From NCBI GenBank assembly GCA_017398555.1, contig JAFQFV010000035.1, positions 1 to 64,000 of the forward strand: DNA of 64,000 nt. The letters run 5' to 3'. Position numbers and translations under genes: made by a program. Source of the DNA: Alistipes sp. (lineage in GTDB: Bacteria; Bacteroidota; Bacteroidia; Bacteroidales; Rikenellaceae). Shown piece by piece: positions 31,677 through 41,242 of the stretch (the first letter of the stretch is position 1; the number at the start of each line of letters is the position of its first letter). The notes under the pieces were generated by a model. That model searched no databases, was not told the origin of the DNA, and saw nothing but the letters and a program-made list of their open reading frames with translations.

Positions 31677-33236
31677 ATGAAGAGACTTTTTCTTATCGCA
31701 GCACTCTTTTGTGCAGCAGTTTCGTGCGCACCAAAAGATGCCAATCAGCGCCTTGCAGAGCAGGCCGCAAAGGAGTATCTAATACCCGTTCATCCGGGTA
31801 GTTCTGAGCGCCCATTTTGGAATGGCTTTGCCAAGAAGTTTATCTATGCGCCAGCCTTTGATTTTCAGACAGTTGAGGGCGCAACGGAGTACCTCTATAA
31901 GGTCACATCCGAGGTCGGAGAGTGGAACTTTAAGGCAGAGAGTCCGCAGTGCTCACTCGCTCCGATTTGGAACGAAATTCCACAGGGCACAAACGTCACA
32001 CTTACCGTCGAAGGTCTGTCTGCTGACGGAGTAGTTTTAGGCAAGGCTGGCGAGCGTACTTTTTGGCGTGATTACGGCTTTAATCCGCCATATACGGGTG
32101 CAGTTCGCGGCTATCGTGAGGCTGCAATTTTGGGTATGCTCTATGTTCATACAATGCCTCAGGTGCAGAACTTTGCAACCTCCGCAGAGCCCGATATGAG
32201 CTACAAACACTTCACATACCCTTGCAAGATTATAGGTGCTGTGGTTAAGTTGGAGGTACTCTTATCCAAGACTCTGCCTCAATACAGCGAGAATGCTCTG
32301 GCGATTGCCAAGAATGCAGCGCAGTTCCTCATCGACCAAGCGCGTAAGCCTGGCGAGCCACTTGCATATTTTCCACCGACATATTATAAAAATCTGATAG
32401 CCTCAAAGCGCAGTAGCAATCAGGGTAAAACGATGGCTATGGAGGCTGCATCAGCAGGTCAGGCATACCTCGATTTGTACGACGCTACGGGCGACGAATT
32501 ATACCTGCAGCAAGCCCTCGGCATTGCCGATACATATCTTCGCTTGCAGTGCGAGGATGGCTCATGGCATATCAAGTATGACTTTGCGACGGGCGAGCCT
32601 GTAAATAACAGCAAAGCGATGCTCCACCCACTTCTCAACTACTTCCTCCGCCTTGAAAAGGAGTATGGACAGACCAAATACGCTGACGCCCGTATTCGTG
32701 GCGAGAAGTGGATGGCAACCCATATCCTCGATAAGTTTGATATGACAGGTCAGTTTGAGGATACAGCCGTAGAGGGTCTGCAGCCATACGAGAACTTAAC
32801 AAATTGTACTGCAGCACCTTACGCATCATATCTACTCAACCGTGGTGCAAGTAAAGAGGAGGTTGCAACAGCCTACGAGCTTGTGCGTTTCAGCGAGGAT
32901 CAGTTTGTATATTGGAATCAGCCTGTAACTGAGAGAGGTTACAGACGTGACATTACCCCGTGCGTCTTCGAGCAGTACAAGTATCCAATGCCTGTAGATA
33001 ACAGCACTTGCAATGTTGCAAACGCTATGTTGAGCATCTATGAGCAGACCGGCGATGAACTGATGCTTGCCAAAGCAAAGGCGCTTGTCGATAACATTAC
33101 CGTTGCACAATGCGTCAATACGGGTAAAATTCCGACCACTTGGCGCATCCGTCATAATTACAAGCCAACATTCTGGGTAAATTGCTCATACAGCTCTATC
33201 TGCATGCTGCTCAGAATGGATAAATTAGAGGAGTAG
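31677..33236 (+). CDS. Lipoprotein with alpha/alpha-barrel glycosidase-like region
   Basis: A 519-residue lipoprotein (VSCA, C17). After a beta-rich N-terminal part with a fibronectin-like look (about 55-130), the remainder is helical with paired repeats such as QAYLDLYDATGDELYLQQAL and AMLSIYEQTGDELMLAKAKA. That pattern is typical of six-hairpin (alpha/alpha)6 enzymes such as GH88, GH105, GH127 or epimerases. I cannot assign a family or catalytic residues. It is coupled to the GH20 gene by a three-base gap, so a role in processing the same glycan is likely. Confidence 0.6.
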   Translation: MKRLFLIAALFCAAVSCAPKDANQRLAEQAAKEYLIPVHPGSSERPFWNGFAKKFIYAPAFDFQTVEGATEYLYKVTSEVGEWNFKAESPQCSLAPIWNEIPQGTNVTLTVEGLSADGVVLGKAGERTFWRDYGFNPPYTGAVRGYREAAILGMLYVHTMPQVQNFATSAEPDMSYKHFTYPCKIIGAVVKLEVLLSKTLPQYSENALAIAKNAAQFLIDQARKPGEPLAYFPPTYYKNLIASKRSSNQGKTMAMEAASAGQAYLDLYDATGDELYLQQALGIADTYLRLQCEDGSWHIKYDFATGEPVNNSKAMLHPLLNYFLRLEKEYGQTKYADARIRGEKWMATHILDKFDMTGQFEDTAVEGLQPYENLTNCTAAPYASYLLNRGASKEEVATAYELVRFSEDQFVYWNQPVTERGYRRDITPCVFEQYKYPMPVDNSTCNVANAMLSIYEQTGDELMLAKAKALVDNITVAQCVNTGKIPTTWRIRHNYKPTFWVNCSYSSICMLLRMDKLEE

Positions 33237-33275
33237 TGTAATATTTTACCACTTTTGCAGTCCTATATACAAACG

Positions 33276-33812
33276 ATGTATAAAATGACTGACAAAGAGC
33301 TGATAACCCGAATAGTTTTGCATAACGACACCGAGGCATTCTCAATCGTTATGCAGAGGTATTCGGGTTTAGTCTTCTCCACAGCACTCAGCATTACAAA
33401 GGATTACGCCCTTGCCGAGGAGGTGACACAGCTCTCGCTGATAAAGGCATACAAAAACCTACACCATTGGCGAGGTGGTAGTGATTTAGCCCCGTATCTG
33501 CGAGTGATTACGCACAATCAGGCTCTTGACACACTTAAAAGCCGACAAAAGGAGCGGCATAGCGATATAGACAACCAACCCATTGCCGACGATGACGGAC
33601 AGACAGAGCACCTCGCGCTACTCGATGCAATGGATAGGGCAATCGCTCGGCTGACGGCTGATGAGCGCGATATTATCGAGCTACACTACTACCAAAAATT
33701 AAAGGTAAAAGATATTGCAGAGCAGACGGGACTCAGTCAATCAAATATACTTGTCCGACTGCATAGAATACGTGAAAAACTAAAAAATTTCATTGAGAAT
33801 GAAGACGATTGA
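33276..33812 (+). CDS. ECF RNA polymerase sigma factor
   Basis: A 178-residue ECF sigma factor. Region 2 runs through TKDYALAEEVTQLSLIKAYK and LAPYLRVITHNQALDTLKSR. Region 4 has the helix-turn-helix KLKVKDIAEQTGLSQSNILV. A TTG at 33255 would extend the frame across likely leader DNA; ATG 33276 (or 33285) is preferred. It overlaps the next gene and heads a three-gene operon with two membrane proteins. It lacks the FecR-type partner typical of polysaccharide-utilisation sigma factors. Confidence 0.88.
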   Translation: MYKMTDKELITRIVLHNDTEAFSIVMQRYSGLVFSTALSITKDYALAEEVTQLSLIKAYKNLHHWRGGSDLAPYLRVITHNQALDTLKSRQKERHSDIDNQPIADDDGQTEHLALLDAMDRAIARLTADERDIIELHYYQKLKVKDIAEQTGLSQSNILVRLHRIREKLKNFIENEDD

Positions 33813-34119
33813 CGATAGACAACTCGACGGGCTTATCTCCGAGAGTCTGCAACGACAGCACACCATCAAAAGTATCAATACCCAGGTGCTTGCAGAGGTC
33901 AAAAGATACAATCGCGCAAGCAAATGGAGAAGTATTGTGCGCGTTGTCGCATTCTCTTTTGGTGTGCCTACGATGATGGCAGTAATGGGATATTGCGCAT
34001 ACCTGATATTGATTACAGCAGAGAGTGCAATGAGCTATATGTTAGTTGCCATAACTATTATCTCGGCACTGTTTATGGCAATATACTCGGTTGCAAATTT
34101 TTCTTTAGATGAGGTGTAA
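33799..34119 (+). CDS. Small two-TM protein, probable anti-sigma factor
   Basis: A 106-residue protein with a basic N-terminal half and two hydrophobic segments (about 46-70 and 75-98). ATG 33799 lies 14 bases inside the end of the sigma gene. The N-terminal region DDRQLDGLISESLQRQ could bind the sigma factor. Function by position only. No zinc motif is seen. Confidence 0.55.
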   Translation: MKTIDDRQLDGLISESLQRQHTIKSINTQVLAEVKRYNRASKWRSIVRVVAFSFGVPTMMAVMGYCAYLILITAESAMSYMLVAITIISALFMAIYSVANFSLDEV

Positions 34120-34174
34120 TAATTCACTTAGTCTCAAGTCTTTAATACGAAGTTAAACTAAAACAAAAACTATT

Positions 34175-34594
34175 ATGGATTCCTATTCTATCAGGTACAT
34201 CGTGGATAGCTTAATAACCGGAGCTATCATTATCACTCCGATTGTTCTCTTCTTTGTAGCCTACATTCGCAACAAGAGAGCCGAGAACGAACTACGAATG
34301 CGACTTTTAGAGAACAACTCAAACCCCGAACTTGCCAAGGCTCTTATCGAGAGCAAACCAAAGACACAACCAAAGCTCATTCTGCTCCGCATAGGTCTGC
34401 CGGCAATCTTTGCCTCTCTCTTCGGCTTTGGTTTCTTCTATTGGATGAATACTCAGGTCGAAAATCCAAACAGTTTTGATGGTGCACCTATAATGCTTAT
34501 CTTCATAGTAGTTTTCGGCCTCGGACTTGGACTTATATCGGCACTGCTCATCGAACGCAAACTGCTCAAAAAACACCCAAACACCGAAGAATAA
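34175..34594 (+). CDS. DUF6249-like membrane protein
   Basis: A 139-residue inner-membrane protein with three hydrophobic segments (about 11-30, 70-90, 103-125) and a charged loop after the first (RNKRAENELRMRLLENN). The plan resembles DUF6249 proteins that accompany sigma/anti-sigma pairs in Bacteroidota; the family name is from memory. Fifty-five bases follow the anti-sigma-like gene, and a terminator lies just after it. Confidence 0.55.
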   Translation: MDSYSIRYIVDSLITGAIIITPIVLFFVAYIRNKRAENELRMRLLENNSNPELAKALIESKPKTQPKLILLRIGLPAIFASLFGFGFFYWMNTQVENPNSFDGAPIMLIFIVVFGLGLGLISALLIERKLLKKHPNTEE

Positions 34595-34623
34595 TTAGTA
34601 CTAATATATTTAGACGTGTTTTC

Positions 34624-34648
34624 AGAGTCCGCAATCGCGGACTCTTTT
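34624..34648 (+). terminator. Terminator after the second sigma operon
   Basis: AGAGTCCGC, loop AATC, GCGGACTCT, then TTT. A perfect nine-base stem about 30 bases after the stop codon. Confidence 0.85.
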
Positions 34649-34675
34649 GGTTGCTGAACCTATAGCGACTACAAG

Positions 34676-34714
34676 AATAAACAGAGGCGAGAACAAATCT
34701 CACCTCCGTTTATT
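34676..34714 (-). terminator. Terminator of the HEPN-gene operon
   Basis: AATAAAC and GAGGCGAGA pair with TCTCACCTC and GTTTATT around an ACAAA loop. Read on the reverse strand it follows the HEPN gene stop at once. Together with the preceding hairpin it insulates the two convergent operons. Confidence 0.75.
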
Positions 34715-34716
34715 TA

Positions 34717-35181
34717 TTAAGATTCTTCATTCAGAATTTTCAATGCTTTATCAGCAATCTTTAGGACAAAACGCTTAAAAGAGTAAAAATCCAAATCTTC
34801 TACTTCAATTTTATTAAAGTCGCTCCTGAATGATATTTTATCAATAGGTACAGACTTTGAATCATTATATTCAAATGAAAAATTATAATGAGCAATACTA
34901 TTACGTATTTCTAATGCGATTTTTGCGACAGAAAAATCATTATTCTCGATATGTTTTATATCACTTGGCTCTATACCCCAATCTTGTTTGTTAATTTGAC
35001 TTTGTGGCAAGTCATTTAAGATCGTTTCTCGTGTTACCATCAATAGTCCAACACATGCATTGATAAATAGTGTATGACTATAACTTTGTTCTCCATCCTT
35101 CAAATTGTTTTCATATTGCTGCAAAATGCTTATGGTCCTCTCGATAAACATTCTTGCTTGTTCATTATCTTTCTTTGTCAT
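34717..35181 (-). CDS. HEPN-like protein
   Basis: A 154-residue, mostly helical cytoplasmic protein. Residues 93-98 read RNSIAH, an exact RNxxxH motif of HEPN-domain RNases and related proteins; a long helix (7-25) and a second (about 35-58) precede it as in HEPN bundles. HEPN proteins act as RNA-cutting toxins, defence effectors or nucleotide-binding partners. The gene overlaps the two-TM gene by 17 bases and lies in an AT-rich island. Catalytic use of the motif is inference; a non-enzymatic helical bundle is possible. Confidence 0.6.
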   Translation of the reverse strand: MTKKDNEQARMFIERTISILQQYENNLKDGEQSYSHTLFINACVGLLMVTRETILNDLPQSQINKQDWGIEPSDIKHIENNDFSVAKIALEIRNSIAHYNFSFEYNDSKSVPIDKISFRSDFNKIEVEDLDFYSFKRFVLKIADKALKILNEES

Positions 35182-35536
35182 TGTTCAAACATTTTGACAT
35201 TATTATTAATCCACTTCCTAATACATATAATATCAGCTGAATCCAATCGCATACCTCTATTTGATTGTCTGCCATCGTATAATTTCTCCTAAATTCTTCA
35301 TGAGTTTCCCATTGTTTATTAACAGCGTCTATATCCACGCCCATTGCCATACCTGTCGTATTACTATGAGAAAACTTAGTAAGTTCATTCTCCCATAATA
35401 AATCGACCTTATGATTAATTGCTGACAAATAATCTTCCGTCTTGTTATTTTTCAAATCTAACGACACACATTCCCAACCAAAAGAAATCAAAAGAAAAAT
35501 CAAACCTGTTATTTCTAATTTCTTACTCAAATTCAT
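35165..35536 (-). CDS. Two-TM protein of the LRR/HEPN island
   Basis: A 123-residue protein with hydrophobic segments near residues 9-24 and 100-118 and a polar 75-residue loop between them (SLDLKNNKTEDYLSAINHKV and onwards). ATG 35536 overlaps the LRR gene's 3' end by 14 bases; a longer frame from 35611 would lie deep inside that gene. The 3' end overlaps the HEPN gene by 17 bases. I recognise no family. Tight overlaps on both sides suggest all three act together. Confidence 0.6.
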   Translation of the reverse strand: MNLSKKLEITGLIFLLISFGWECVSLDLKNNKTEDYLSAINHKVDLLWENELTKFSHSNTTGMAMGVDIDAVNKQWETHEEFRRNYTMADNQIEVCDWIQLILYVLGSGLIIMSKCLNNDKER

Positions 35537-37229
35537 ACCCATGAATGTATTTAGAATACTGAGACCAACCATCTGCGACCTTGTATAATTCCTTCGACGA
35601 AGATGGTACATAAATATAACGAACTGTGGTATTCATAAATGTATATGAATCACATAATGGTGGTGTTATTGGTTTGCAATACACTATGTTAAGATTACAT
35701 TCCGAAAATGCATGAGGATAAATCAAAGTGACACCATTGCCAATTGTAACTCGGTACAGCCGACTGCAATTATAGAATGCATAACTTCCAATCTCGGTAA
35801 CGTTATTTCCGATTGTTACACTTGTCAGGCTGCTGCAATTATGGAATGCAGAACTTCCAATCGAAGTAATATTATCGCCTATAATAATTGTAGAAAATTT
35901 TGCCCCATCAATCCATTTATTCGCCGCTCTAATACTATCATCATAAAAATCTGTTTCAATAAAATTACTATCTATAACCAACTCTCCACTGCAATCATAG
36001 AATGCATAATCTCCAATCGAAGTGACACTATCAGGGATAGCAATTGCAAGGCTACTGTAACCATAGAATGCATACCTTCCAATCGAGGTGACACTTTTTG
36101 GAATAACAGTGGCAACACACCCTACTTTCAAAGCATTAGTGGCAGTTTCTATAATAGCATTGCAATTATCTCGACTATCATATACAGCATTATCCAATGC
36201 AACAACTATACTTGTCAGGCTACTGCAATTAGCGAATGCAGCATGTCCAATCTCAGTAACGCTATCAGGGATTGTTACACTTGTCAGGCTACTGCAATCT
36301 TCGAATGCATAATCTCCAATCGAAGTAACGCCGTCACCAATAGTAAGTTTTGTAAATCCAGAACCATATAGCCAATCGTTGGCCGTTACCTCATCCTTAT
36401 CATAATCATAATGGCCGTAATTATATCCAACAACTTGTTGGCTATTGATAATAAGTTCTCCTTTACAATATCTAAATGCGCCCTCTCCAATCTCGGTAAC
36501 GCTATTAGGAATTGTCACACTTGCGAGGCTGCTGCAACCAGAGAATGCATCACTACCAATCGAAGTAACGTTATTTCCGATTGTTACACTTGTCAGGCTA
36601 CTGCAATCATAGAATGCCTCTCTTGTAATAGTAGTTAATTTAGTATTTTTACTCAAATCTATGCTTTGCAAGCCTGTATTCTTAAAGGAAATATCTTCAA
36701 GATTTGTAAATAATGATATACCTTTTACCGATTTCAACTTAGGCTCATCTTCAATCTCAATAACTTTGACTGTATTTGCCTCCATCATTGATATTGTTCC
36801 ATCTTTATTAAGGTCAAAATTTTCATAGCAATAGGCAATGAACACAGCATCATCCATCAAAGTTGCAGCATCATCAACTTGCTGAGCTTCCTGCGCTACT
36901 TTCAACTCAACAATTTCAGTCCCAAATTCACCTTCAAATTCAAAGTAAAAAGTTGTTTTCAAATCTCTGATTGCATCATTTTTAGCCGCAGTAAAGATGA
37001 TTGACATATTACCATTACCCTTATCTATCGATGGAATACACCAGCTGTCACCACCCGTAATAATCCACCTGCAATTACTTGACACTTTAACAACTTCATT
37101 TCCTCCATCTGCATCGAATGTCAACAGTTCTTTATCAATTCCCCAATACGGTGCATCATTAATATCATTGACCTTTTCGCAACTCCAAAATAGAGTAGTA
37201 ACTAACGCTATAATCAAAAACTTTCTCAT
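35523..37229 (-). CDS. BACON/EF-hand/BspA-type leucine-rich-repeat lipoprotein
   Basis: A 568-residue surface lipoprotein (lipobox FWSC, C17). A BACON-like beta domain runs about 30-115. A perfect 12-residue EF-hand loop, DLNKDGTISMME (139-150), should bind calcium. BspA-type LRR_5 repeats follow from about 165 to 540 with the unit SLTSVTIGNNVTSIGSDAF in many near-copies. Such proteins bind host or bacterial surfaces. It heads an overlapping three-gene operon, and its DNA is clearly AT-richer than the housekeeping genes around it, consistent with acquisition by transfer. Confidence 0.85.
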   Translation of the reverse strand: MRKFLIIALVTTLFWSCEKVNDINDAPYWGIDKELLTFDADGGNEVVKVSSNCRWIITGGDSWCIPSIDKGNGNMSIIFTAAKNDAIRDLKTTFYFEFEGEFGTEIVELKVAQEAQQVDDAATLMDDAVFIAYCYENFDLNKDGTISMMEANTVKVIEIEDEPKLKSVKGISLFTNLEDISFKNTGLQSIDLSKNTKLTTITREAFYDCSSLTSVTIGNNVTSIGSDAFSGCSSLASVTIPNSVTEIGEGAFRYCKGELIINSQQVVGYNYGHYDYDKDEVTANDWLYGSGFTKLTIGDGVTSIGDYAFEDCSSLTSVTIPDSVTEIGHAAFANCSSLTSIVVALDNAVYDSRDNCNAIIETATNALKVGCVATVIPKSVTSIGRYAFYGYSSLAIAIPDSVTSIGDYAFYDCSGELVIDSNFIETDFYDDSIRAANKWIDGAKFSTIIIGDNITSIGSSAFHNCSSLTSVTIGNNVTEIGSYAFYNCSRLYRVTIGNGVTLIYPHAFSECNLNIVYCKPITPPLCDSYTFMNTTVRYIYVPSSSKELYKVADGWSQYSKYIHGYEFE

Positions 37230-37719
37230 ATCATCTATCTTTATTATCTATTAACACAATTGGGCTTTATACCAATATTTAACCCAATAACACCTATAAC
37301 GGCGTAGTAATACCTATCCTGACAAATTGAAGTTAGCGTCATTTGTGTCTACATTGTTTAAGTAAAGCATAATTTGAATTAGTTTTTACCCACCAACCCC
37401 GATTGAGTATTATACAAAAAAAGAAAGTGTGGAGTTGATTTTCGTTTAATTGTTAGAAGGTTGTGGTAGAACCCTGCGATAATAAACGATACAATGCCCC
37501 ACACCTGTAATATGCCAACAGATTGGTGTGGATACACCAATAGCATATATACAAGAGAGGTGTTGTTCGTATCCTATCGCTTTGAAAACTACCACATTCT
37601 CTAACAAGGACTGCGAAAACACTTTCAATATGTCTGCCATTTTGCAATAGCACCACAAATTTAGGAAAAGTTTCGCAAACAAACAACACCTTGCGGAGCA
37701 TTGCAATACAATAAAACAA
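37230..37719. other. Long non-coding stretch, possibly a repeat-type element
   Basis: No credible gene. Two overlapping reverse frames (37446-37719) of 86-88 codons are rich in Cys, Ile and Leu and look non-coding. The stretch holds several inverted pairs: GTGGTAG near 37463 with CTACCAC near 37588, TTGGTGT/ACACCAA around a GGAT loop near 37525, and GGTGTTGTT near 37557 with AACAACACC near 37682. A folded RNA or degraded mobile element is possible. I have an unverified impression that related sequences recur in Bacteroidales. Confidence 0.4.
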
Positions 37720-37757
37720 AATTAAGGTGGCTAAAATAATATTTAGCCACCTTAATT
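37720..37757 (-). terminator. Perfect 16-bp hairpin, reverse-strand terminator
   Basis: AATTAAGGTGGCTAAA (37720-37735) and its exact complement (37742-37757) flank a six-base loop. On the reverse strand it is followed by TTTTGTTTTATT. It would stop transcription coming from pheT and the element at 37775-37985. Confidence 0.75.
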
Positions 37758-37774
37758 ACAACACTTATTACTTG

Positions 37775-37985
37775 CACCGTTTTATCGTCAGAATGCGGTA
37801 GATACAACGCTGCGATTAAGTCGAATGCAATCAAACTTGTTTGAATTGCTGAGACGAAGCAGTGAAAAGACTCCGAAGGAGGATTAACGCACGGCACAAA
37901 AAACAGCGAAGGGCTGTACAAGACGTACTGCCCTTTGCTGGTTATTTGGGTTAGCGGCAGCTAATGCTGCCTTTTCACGGCAAAT
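37775..37985. repeat. Interspersed intergenic element, copy B
   Basis: Shares both ends with copy A at 2709-2878: CACCGTTTTATCGTCA on the left and an identical 29-base block (37957-37985) on the right, which begins GCAGCTAATGCTGC, a small hairpin itself. The interior is longer and different but again holds a strong hairpin (37904-37940: CAGC, AAGGGC, GTAC, loop, and the matching arms). It abuts the pheT stop codon, as copy A abuts trxA. Confidence 0.6.
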
Positions 37986-40447
37986 TATCGGATTGAGGCA
38001 CCGCATTGCTTCTCAAACGCCGCCTGCAAATTCGCCATAGTGCGCTCGATAGCCTTATCGGTCAGGGTCTGGCTCTTATCCTCAAGGATAAATGAGAGTG
38101 CGTAAGACTTCTTGCCCTCTGGGAGCTTATCGCCCTCATATACATCGAACAGGGCAACACTCTTAAGCAGCTTGCGCTCGGTAGCAAATGCAATAGCGCG
38201 CAGAGTAGAGAATGTTACGCTCTTATCGACAAGCAGAGCAAGGTCACGCTTAACCTCCGGATACTTTGAGAGCTCTGTTACGGTAATCTTATGCTTGCGG
38301 GTAGCCTTCACGAGCAGATCAAAGTCAATCTCGGCGAAGAATACCTCCTGCTTGATACCCATACTCTTACAGAGCTTGCTTGCAATCTGACCCATCCAGA
38401 TAAGCGGCTTATTATTGATAGAGAGGCACACTGCGTCTCCGAAGATATCGAAATTACAGCTCTCGCACTTAAGGTCGTAGATATTAAGGCCAAAGCGCTT
38501 GAGAAGCAGCTCTACAGATGCACGCAGAGTGAAGAATGAAGCAGAATTTGCCTTGCAGTTCCAAGATGGAGCGCTATCGTTACCTGTAACGGCAATAGCA
38601 AGGCGGTAGTTCTCAGAGTATGCTGCAAGCGGATTCTCCTCAGTAGCAGCCTCGGCGTTGTAGTAGTAGCAATTACCGGCCTCATAGAGCTTAAGGTCTG
38701 CGTTCTTGTGGTTAATATTGAGCGCTACAGCCTCCAGAACATTAAACGCAAGGGTCTGACGCATAACATTAAGGTCCGCAGAGAGCGGGTTGAGAATCTT
38801 CACGCAGTTCTCAGCCTTATAGCACTGCAAGTTCTCGTAGTATGCCGCCTTTGTGAGCGAGTTCGACATAATCTCGGTATAGCCACGCGCTGTAAGCATA
38901 TCCGACACCATATTAACAAGGCGGTTCTTGTCGGGTTTTTGAACATACGAAAGGGTAGAGTTCACATGCTCAGGAATCTCCACGTTGTTATAACCATAGA
39001 TACGCAGAACATCCTCCACCAGGTCAGCCTCACGCTGAACATCTACGCGGTATGGCGGAACAGCAACACTCAGAACGCCATTCTCCTCCTTCTCGATAGT
39101 AACATCGAGGGCAGTGATGATGTTCTTAATAGTATCATCTGCAATATCCTTACCGATAAGCATCTTGGCACGAGAGAGTGAGAAGTCAAAGCGGAACGGC
39201 TCAACCTTCACAGGGTAGATATCTGTAATCTCGCTGCTGATAGTTCCACCTGCAAGCTCCTTAAAGAGCAGCGCAGCACGCTTAAGGGCATATACCTGCA
39301 TATTTGGATCTACACCACGCTCGAAACGGAATGATGAATCGGTGTTAAGTCCGTGACGCTTTGCACTCTTACGCACAGATACAGGATTGAAGTATGCGCT
39401 CTCGATAAATACATCGGTAGTAGTATCGCTTACGCCTGAATCAAGGCCACCAAATACGCCGGCAAGGCACATTGGGCGCTCTGCAGAGCAAATCATAAGG
39501 TCAGCAGCAGACAATTTACGCTCTACGCCATCGAGAGTTACAAATGGAGTACCCTCCTCGCAGTTACGAACAACGATTTTGCTGCCCTCAATCTTGCTTG
39601 CATCAAAGGCGTGGAGCGGCTGACCAAGCTCAAAGAGTACGAAGTTGGTTATATCGACAAGGTTATTCTTCGGATTGATGCCTGCAGCACGCAGATAGTT
39701 CTGCATCCAATCAGGTGACGGAGCAATCTTACAACCCTTAACGGTCACGCCCGCATAACGAGGACACGCTGTAGTATTTGCAACCTCTACATCAATCTTA
39801 AGGTCATTATTCTCAACTGCAAAGTCATCAACGCTCGGCATACGAAGCTCAGCACGCTGACCCTGGCTCTTAAGATATGCCACAATGTCACGTGCAACGC
39901 CGATGTGCGAAGCTGCATCTACACGGTTTGGAGTAAGACCGATTGCAATGAGGTAGTCATCCTCAATATTGTAATATTCGCGAGCAGGTGTGCCGACAAC
40001 AGCATCCTCCGGAAGCTCAATAATTCCTGCGTGGTCAGAGCCAATGCCCAGTTCATCCTCTGCGCAGAGCATACCGAGTGACTCGACGCCGCGAATCTTG
40101 CTGCGCTTAATCTTAAAGCCCTCAGTTGCATCAATAGGGTAGAGTACAGCGCCAACGGTAGCGCACATAACCTTAAGTCCCTGGCGGCAGTTTGCTGCGC
40201 CACAAACGATATTCAGAGGAGCCTCTGCGCCGACATCTACTGTTGTAATGTGGAGGTGGTCAGAGTCCGGATGGTCCTCACAAGTGAGCACCTGACCCAC
40301 AACAACGCCCTCAAGGCCACCACGAATAGTCTCGACCTTCTCAAAACCCTCTACCTCCAAACCGATATCGGTCAGAAGTGTTGCAACCTGCTCTGCCGAA
40401 AGGTCTATATCGGCATAGTTTTTAAGCCACTTAAACGAAATATTCAT
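37985..40447 (-). CDS. pheT: Phenylalanyl-tRNA synthetase beta subunit
   Basis: The 820-residue beta subunit of the PheRS heterotetramer. An EMAP-like tRNA-binding domain (about 40-150) comes first. The B3/B4 editing region follows, with KGCKIAPSPDWMQNYLRAAG. B5 comes next, then a catalytic-like domain, and a C-terminal FDX-ACB anticodon domain with LSKYPEVKRDLALLVD. The length is normal. pheS is not in the window. A -7 box lies 44 bases upstream (40491-40498). Confidence 0.97.
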   Translation of the reverse strand: MNISFKWLKNYADIDLSAEQVATLLTDIGLEVEGFEKVETIRGGLEGVVVGQVLTCEDHPDSDHLHITTVDVGAEAPLNIVCGAANCRQGLKVMCATVGAVLYPIDATEGFKIKRSKIRGVESLGMLCAEDELGIGSDHAGIIELPEDAVVGTPAREYYNIEDDYLIAIGLTPNRVDAASHIGVARDIVAYLKSQGQRAELRMPSVDDFAVENNDLKIDVEVANTTACPRYAGVTVKGCKIAPSPDWMQNYLRAAGINPKNNLVDITNFVLFELGQPLHAFDASKIEGSKIVVRNCEEGTPFVTLDGVERKLSAADLMICSAERPMCLAGVFGGLDSGVSDTTTDVFIESAYFNPVSVRKSAKRHGLNTDSSFRFERGVDPNMQVYALKRAALLFKELAGGTISSEITDIYPVKVEPFRFDFSLSRAKMLIGKDIADDTIKNIITALDVTIEKEENGVLSVAVPPYRVDVQREADLVEDVLRIYGYNNVEIPEHVNSTLSYVQKPDKNRLVNMVSDMLTARGYTEIMSNSLTKAAYYENLQCYKAENCVKILNPLSADLNVMRQTLAFNVLEAVALNINHKNADLKLYEAGNCYYYNAEAATEENPLAAYSENYRLAIAVTGNDSAPSWNCKANSASFFTLRASVELLLKRFGLNIYDLKCESCNFDIFGDAVCLSINNKPLIWMGQIASKLCKSMGIKQEVFFAEIDFDLLVKATRKHKITVTELSKYPEVKRDLALLVDKSVTFSTLRAIAFATERKLLKSVALFDVYEGDKLPEGKKSYALSFILEDKSQTLTDKAIERTMANLQAAFEKQCGASIR

Positions 40448-40490
40448 ATCTTATCTGTTCTTATACTATTTCCTAACTTAATAGACGCGC

Positions 40491-40498
40491 AAAGATAG
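40491..40498 (-). promoter_or_regulatory. -7 box of pheT
   Basis: Reverse-strand TATCTTTG. No matching -33 TTG is seen at the usual distance. Confidence 0.4.
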
Positions 40499-40513
40499 TA
40501 AAAAAGTTGGAAA

Positions 40514-41242
40514 TCAGAAGCACTTGCAGAAAATATCTGCCATTCTTTGCTGAATCTCCGAATCGCGACCCCTCTTCGGATGCCAACCATACTCCACGCC
40601 GTCTATTGTCTCGTTAGCATTTGCATCGGGATGAGCAAAGAAAACCGATATCTGCTTACCTGTCTTTGCATCCGGTTTATCCATCGTAAAACCTATCTGT
40701 TCATCGAACTTACAGAGGCGTACGCAATCCCATTTTTGGGCAAATTCACGCACCGAGCGATTGAAGTACTTACGCGCATCGTGCCAATGGGTACAGATAA
40801 GAATATCCACAGGCTTACCACCCTCCACTCCATACCATTTTGAATCAGAATTATACTCAAGAGCCTGACACATAGCAATATAGCCCTTGACAACATAGTT
40901 ATAAGCCGTAGCAAATGGGGCGTGCACCTCCTCCTCCGAACAGATGTCGTAGTTGTGCGTGTGCATAATTACAAAAGTAGCAAAACTATCAAGTTCCTCT
41001 CGAGTAAAAAGAGTATTATCCTTCATACTCTGAGCTGTATCAATTATGTCTGTACCCGAGATAGCCTTATTTATCGGTTTAAGATTAAGCCTCTCACACG
41101 CCATCTCAAACCAGCAATTTTCAGGATATGCAAACGATGCACCGACAATACAGAGGCTATCCATCTTAGCCTCCTCTGGCAGTTTATCTGCACTACAACC
41201 ACACAGAAGTAGTGCAAAAAGTATCGTAAATACCCTCCTCAT
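40514..41242 (-). CDS. SGNH-like lipoprotein (DUF5040-type)
   Basis: A 242-residue lipoprotein (LCGC lipobox near residue 15). SLCIVGASFAYPENCW places a serine in a GxS block near the start of the mature protein, as in SGNH/GDSL esterases. MHTHNYD, HWHDARKYF and a late FFAHPDANAN follow. It resembles what I recall as DUF5040 of Bacteroidota. Substrate unknown. The longer frame from 41257 would encode across the promoter's -7 box, so ATG 41242 is used. Confidence 0.65.
   Translation of the reverse strand: MRRVFTILFALLLCGCSADKLPEEAKMDSLCIVGASFAYPENCWFEMACERLNLKPINKAISGTDIIDTAQSMKDNTLFTREELDSFATFVIMHTHNYDICSEEEVHAPFATAYNYVVKGYIAMCQALEYNSDSKWYGVEGGKPVDILICTHWHDARKYFNRSVREFAQKWDCVRLCKFDEQIGFTMDKPDAKTGKQISVFFAHPDANANETIDGVEYGWHPKRGRDSEIQQRMADIFCKCF

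Follow-up and report, generated by a model that had tools for sequence, protein, structure and literature searches.

A multi-copy structured leader RNA precedes a putative surface LRR protein and a HEPN protein in a probably acquired operon of Alistipes

Results

A three-gene operon with a promoter and a leader RNA

The window, which is the whole stretch of 64,000 nucleotides of Alistipes sp. DNA that was analysed, carries a reverse-strand operon of three overlapping genes, headed by a predicted promoter and a structured leader RNA (Table 1). Bacteroidota promoters follow a -33/-7 consensus. The promoter and leader (37413-37690) belong to the operon and lie just outside the three-gene island (34717-37229) that an earlier, sequence-only reading had delimited.

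Table 1. Features of the operon and its surroundings in the window (approximate ends are marked)
Feature	Position	Strand	Description	Basis
Predicted promoter	37656..37686	-	Bacteroidota type: TTG (37686-37684), 20 nt, TAAATTTG (37663-37656)	read by eye
Structured leader RNA	37413..37634	-	long rod	fold, covariation, model R1
LRR gene	35523..37229	-	568 aa, secreted BspA-type protein (LRR_5), probable lipoprotein (LFWSC)	Pfam and reading of the translation
Middle gene	35165..35536	-	123 aa, two predicted TM helices, orphan accessory	hydrophobicity; no convincing relative
HEPN gene	34717..35181	-	154 aa, pEK499_p136 family (PF18736), predicted cytoplasmic RNase	Pfam
Possible operon terminator	34676..34714	-	hairpin AATAAACGGAGGTGAGA / TCTCGCCTCTGTTTATT directly behind the HEPN gene	read by eye
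Inserted island	34650..37760	.	exact ends approximate	flanks adjacent in L051, L052, L053
Left boundary of island	34624-34645		terminator-like hairpin behind a 139-aa gene	
Right boundary of island			repeats behind the 820-aa gene (37985-40447)	gene pheT-like by sight
Dispersed intergenic repeats	37758..37980	.	between island and 820-aa gene, outside the operon	repeat matches in own genome

Much of what the sequence-only reading had said of the genes was borne out. The coordinates agree with overlaps of 14 bp and 17 bp between the three reverse-strand genes, and the middle protein, described as spanning the membrane twice, has hydrophobic stretches at about residues 6-28 and 93-117. Its start has three options: the ATG at 35536, a position two codons earlier, or 35611, which would give 148 aa. 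No convincing relatives of this two-TM protein were found in plasmids, genome_contigs, viral_contigs, 295 genomes of the order or 151 genomes of the genus; four matches with E-values of 0.004-0.05 (L004, L005, L080 and L081) were rejected, as by sight they fall within unrelated genes or on the strand opposite to such genes. The hairpin directly behind the HEPN gene was not among the calls of a terminator scan.

For the first protein, proposed to be an LRR/BACON lipoprotein, the LRR part stood (LRR_5 of the BspA type, E 1e-70 in Pfam) and the BACON-like N-terminal part is sub-threshold. A Pfam scan of the whole protein gave no BACON match at E 1, and the N-terminal 89 residues alone reached PF13004 (BACON) with E 0.0073 and 16.7 bits, below the cut-off of 25. 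Residues 138-150 form a weak EF-hand-like segment. The lipoprotein-like signal MRKFLIIALVTTLFWSC passes a simple home-made rule, and the 568-aa protein is probably a lipoprotein that may be displayed at the surface. LRR_5 matches occur in 20 stretches of the same genome, and no repeated small gene was seen behind the LRR paralogues in the five of six stretches viewed by eye.

The HEPN protein belongs to a rare family

The 154-aa protein had been called HEPN-like on account of an exact RNxxxH motif. Pfam supports this call with a match to pEK499_p136 over residues 6-148 (E 3.9e-24; 85.5 bits, cut-off 26.6), and the motif, RNSIAH at R93-H98, is in register with that of its relatives: R93, N94 and H98 are invariant in 10 of 10 aligned sequences. 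RNxxxH also arises in 0.9% of 20,000 shuffles of the protein, so that the motif by itself is only modest evidence. A sequence search of the PDB matched no chain at E 10. We predict from the profile and the motif that the protein is a HEPN RNase acting in the cytoplasm.

The family is rare in the order, the phylum sample and the genus. With the window genome counted each time, PF18736 scores above its cut-off in 4 of 295 order genomes, 5 of 395 genomes of the phylum sample and 5 of 180 genus genomes; at E 0.001 the first two counts become 6/295 and 9/395. The window genome itself has one match. Relatives lie on enterobacterial plasmids (94 of 72,556 records match at E 0.01, none of them reaching 60% identity), and no match was found in phages and viral contigs.

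PADLOC models gave no match to the HEPN and LRR proteins at E 1. The middle protein matched Csx19 (E 0.0057), a weak match that is probably due to chance, and there was thus no convincing PADLOC model match of the three proteins to a known anti-phage system.

The operon lies in an AT-rich island with empty sites in congeners

The island (34717-37229) had been described as visibly AT-richer than both flanks and hence possibly transferred, and both points hold. Its GC content is 0.348, compared with 0.469 and 0.468 on either side and a mean of 0.467 over 2.5-kb windows, and it is lower than that of every 2.5-kb stretch of the whole window taken in 500-bp steps (minimum 0.352). By gene, GC is 0.301 for HEPN, 0.312 for the middle gene and 0.366 for the LRR gene.

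Transfer is backed by empty sites in three congeners. The alignment ends of the convergent flanking genes are separated by 3,397-3,434 bp in the window and by 140, 167 and 237 bp in G028, G029 and G006, three other genomes of the genus. These empty sites emerged when the region behind the 820-aa gene was compared in 12 congener stretches. In two others (L060 and L061), the window block 30.0-31.6 or 30.0-30.9 kb sits 208 or 989 bp, respectively, from the 820-aa gene, which means that the island and window positions 31.6-34.6 kb are both missing there. The remaining seven stretches are uninformative, as the contig ends first (L054, L055) or the left flank is unaligned (L056-L059, L062). Neither an integrase nor a target duplication was seen. 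Taken from its sequence context, the operon appears to be an acquired gene cluster.

Positions 37230-37980 give 54 matches in the own genome (self included), most of them within the 37758-37980 part. On the other side, adjoining the island, a sigma-factor-like gene and a small membrane protein were recognised by sight (window 33255-34119).

The leader is a multi-copy RNA with covarying helices

A repeated element of ~300 bp precedes the LRR gene. Sets of 8 and then 35 of its copies were folded, each time giving one long rod with internal loops. The leader is ~200-230 nt long. At the window, the rod is closed by GAAAGTG (37626-37620) pairing with CACTTTC (37429-37423), followed by 7 T (37422-37416); the fold has a z-score of -5.7 for 37413-37700. 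This copy scores 188.9 bits with model R1, of which it is itself a part.

The helices are strongly supported by covariation. Among the 35 copies, 20 of 60 pairs are changed on both sides, compared with an average of 13.7 in shuffles and at most 11 in slid versions of the pairing. Counted by cells, 164 are changed on both sides (shuffles average 51.2; slid versions at most 26), and the share of cells that pair is 97.4%, falling to 38.6-48.9% in slid versions. A further measure, that of further pair types, showed no excess over shuffles, 103 of 500 of which reach the observed value. All 35 inspected copies have a TAnnTTTG box upstream of the hairpin, and most of them, the window copy included, have a T-rich tail behind it.

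Leader copies were found by BLAST in 81 of 101 genus genomes. Across the order, model R1 detects the leader in 28 of 295 genomes, the own one included, and in 25 of 184 genera. These counts are probably a floor, as no genome has more than 7 scored candidates in the rows listed; the E-values of R1 are rough. The own genome has 7 BLAST matches, six of them listed, and R1 adds L075 and L078, one of which could be the seventh. In a set of 24 further copies, the box lies within 100 nt upstream in 20 (the others being L172, L179, L183 and L189), and about 17 precede a secreted protein as judged by eye, LRR-like ones among them (L180, L182 and L184).

The next gene in the sense of the leader passes the simple lipoprotein rule in 28 of 36 copies, compared with 22 of 186 rough genes from 13 genus stretches; the 36 are those in loci already studied plus the best-ranked matches and not a random draw, and the script looked in the leader sense only, by design. 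Inspection by eye would amend this count at three places: of the 28, L161 passes falsely and L162 has the look of a secreted protein without a lipoprotein signal, whereas L145, counted otherwise, is lipoprotein-like. The leader is thus a multi-copy structured RNA that mostly precedes lipoprotein genes. Examples of genus copies before other genes are L149, with a Band 7 protein, and L146, with a DUF805 protein.

Rfam assigns no family to the leader, whether in window positions 33000-41000, in 7 genus loci or in 17 of the 19 loci L172-L190 (the set without L184 and L186). A reading of the repeat at 37.4-37.7 kb as the end of a mobile element was set aside, because its copies precede genes, in a downstream search made in sense only, and have a -7 box.

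Leader, surface protein and HEPN recur together in the genus

All five HEPN operons of the genus begin with the leader, and only same-strand genes lie between leader and HEPN. The order is leader-LRR-2TM-HEPN in the window. In G743 it is leader-LRR-HEPN, with an LRR_5 lipoprotein-like gene ending 26 bp before HEPN; in G827 leader-93aa-BACON/LRR-HEPN, with a BACON/LRR_5 protein of 808 aa 34 bp before HEPN; in G799 leader-174aa-LRR-HEPN, with HEPN 77 bp behind the gene for a secreted 356-aa LRR_5 protein; and in G812 leader-HEPN, 33 nt apart and with no LRR gene. An LRR_5 secreted protein thus precedes HEPN in four of the five genomes, directly or, in the window, one gene earlier. The arrangement of leader, then surface protein, with HEPN appears stable within the genus.

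None of the other four operons has the two-TM gene, and a fixed three-gene system was rejected on this ground. Of the co-occurrence that the sequence-only reading had proposed to check, the two small genes were found together nowhere else, and the association of HEPN with LRR proteins was upheld in the genus.

The leader copies of the window, G743 and G827 are part of model R1. Those of G799 and G812 are divergent copies outside the model that score 54.0 and 38.7 bits, and both have the -7 box; the best chance match to R1 reaches 11.3 bits and the antisense of true matches 22.9-24.4 bits. Three leaders end without a U-tract like that of the window, namely those of G827 (TTTCTGCATATA), G799 (TTTCTGTTTACTCA) and G812 (TTTCTTTATTTACT). 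By eye, the neighbours are of a mobile type, with a methylase-like gene and a recombinase-like end in G827 and helicase-like genes in G799 and G812. Since the latter two share these neighbours, the five operons do not represent five independent events.

Outside the genus, none of 10 HEPN-bearing loci gave a leader match at E 0.1 (L063-L066, L068-L071, L170 and L020; L072 and L073 were left out of this search), and five of these 10 gave none beside HEPN at E 1. Neighbours outside the genus are mostly different: in a set of ten loci viewed for their neighbours, an LRR protein lies at one (L066), the other nine judged by eye. At that locus, in another family (L066:6738-9000), a HEPN match below the cut-off has on its downstream side an LRR lipoprotein-like gene and the gene for a one-TM protein. 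In a sheep-rumen Bacteroidales sequence (L170:298-5429), a 1528-aa Big_2 Ig-like lipoprotein-like gene lies directly upstream of a pEK499_p136 HEPN gene. The E. coli plasmid HEPN locus has neither an LRR protein nor a Big_2 lipoprotein-like gene among its neighbours.

Discussion

Proposed co-expression of a surface protein and an RNase

The simplest account of the operon is that a regulated leader brings about co-expression of its genes. We tentatively favour, with confidence a little short of even, an acquired cassette that co-expresses a surface LRR protein and a cytoplasmic HEPN RNase. In this model, a Bacteroidota-type promoter would drive the ~200-230-nt leader, whose U-tract end at the window is attenuator-like, and the leader may hold back read-through until a signal lifts the block. 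The LRR protein would work at the surface by binding or shielding, and the HEPN protein would cut cytoplasmic RNA as an effector that arrests growth and is probably directed against phage. The two proteins would be linked by co-expression, with no signalling chain across the envelope. Plain attenuation is disfavoured at three of the five HEPN operons, where the U-tract is weak or missing; this lowers our estimate of the co-expression reading and raises that of hitch-hiking.

Hitch-hiking would mean that the leader and LRR genes, being common and prone to recombination, receive a HEPN gene behind them without a functional tie. We consider this rather unlikely. The leader is multi-copy in the own genome and stands ahead of many unrelated genes, LRR_5 stretches abound there, and the HEPN gene of G812 has no LRR gene beside it. 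Against this, chance would place a given gene within three genes downstream of a leader about 1.5-3% of the time. This estimate assumes about 10-20 copies of the leader in a genome of roughly 1,900 genes, the latter figure scaled up from the 59 rough genes in 64 kb. Five of five is far higher, unless the cassette was inherited as one.

Leader and HEPN might also form a pair of their own, either like a type III toxin-antitoxin system, in which the RNA restrains the RNase, or as an autoregulatory unit, in which HEPN cuts the leader. The leader opens the HEPN operon in all five genus loci, at a distance of 33 nt in G812. We nevertheless judge this improbable: many leader-preceded genes have no HEPN, HEPN loci outside the genus have no leader (0/10), and there is no repeat array, unlike in type III antitoxins. 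In known type III systems, a structured RNA stands ahead of an RNase-like gene, in the order RNA then RNase. The window leader differs in that no short tandem repeats were noticed in it and that it also serves many non-toxin genes. A variant that we regard as very doubtful is that the leader is the element controlling a regulon of surface proteins, and that HEPN acts on leader RNA in cis and in trans and would thereby reset the expression of surface lipoproteins, or arrest growth on loss of the leader, for example upon phage attack.

The outside-to-inside chain of the sequence-only reading, in which contact sensed by the LRR protein at the surface would be passed on by the two-TM protein to HEPN, fits the gene overlaps and predicted locations but is highly improbable, because the other four operons do without its only membrane protein, for which no convincing relatives were found. 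Nothing spanning the periplasm was found, and the G799 LRR protein looks, by sight, secreted without a lipobox.

Relation to known systems

The pEK499_p136 HEPN family was described by Anantharaman et al. 2013 (PMC3710099). Its neighbours named there are R-M, ART, Macro, NamA-like and Pgl proteins, including R-M and Pgl operons; the words 'leucine' and 'lipoprotein' are absent from the main text, and its passages on the family name no leader RNA. The window protein resembles the family in its profile match and the conserved RNxxxH, and differs in these neighbours. A role of the operon in defence is inferred from this company and from the acquired setting.

The LRR protein is like the BspA-type surface proteins of Bacteroidales in its LRR_5 repeats and lipoprotein-like signal, and differs in having a HEPN gene behind it. 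To our knowledge, no trigger of a pEK499_p136 HEPN protein is known, and its repeated occurrence in surface-protein operons under one leader RNA may offer a testable handle on that trigger.

The leader is the larger result and the most interesting part. The UpxY-regulated leaders of Bacteroides capsule operons are promoter-proximal and lie ahead of genes for surface structures. The position of our leader is likewise promoter-proximal. 6S RNA (RF00013) and 6S-Flavo RNA (RF01685) are rod-like and of similar length. The leader is unlike them in that it has no Rfam match, is multi-copy and stands ahead of genes, and its identification as a known 6S-type RNA was dropped for want of Rfam support. 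Among the titles listed by literature searches, none describes the leader or the trio; the leader may be among the candidate RNAs of PMC8040213, the supplementary tables of which hold thousands. The locus is partly new: the HEPN family is known, the operon is uncommon and the leader RNA has no Rfam match.

Should the leader prove to control expression, it would be relevant to the way in which gut Bacteroidales coordinate some of their accessory surface proteins. A copy in another family (L172:1754-2383) has, in place of a lipoprotein gene, one for a PDDEXK_9-like protein downstream (E 5e-4, below the cut-off).
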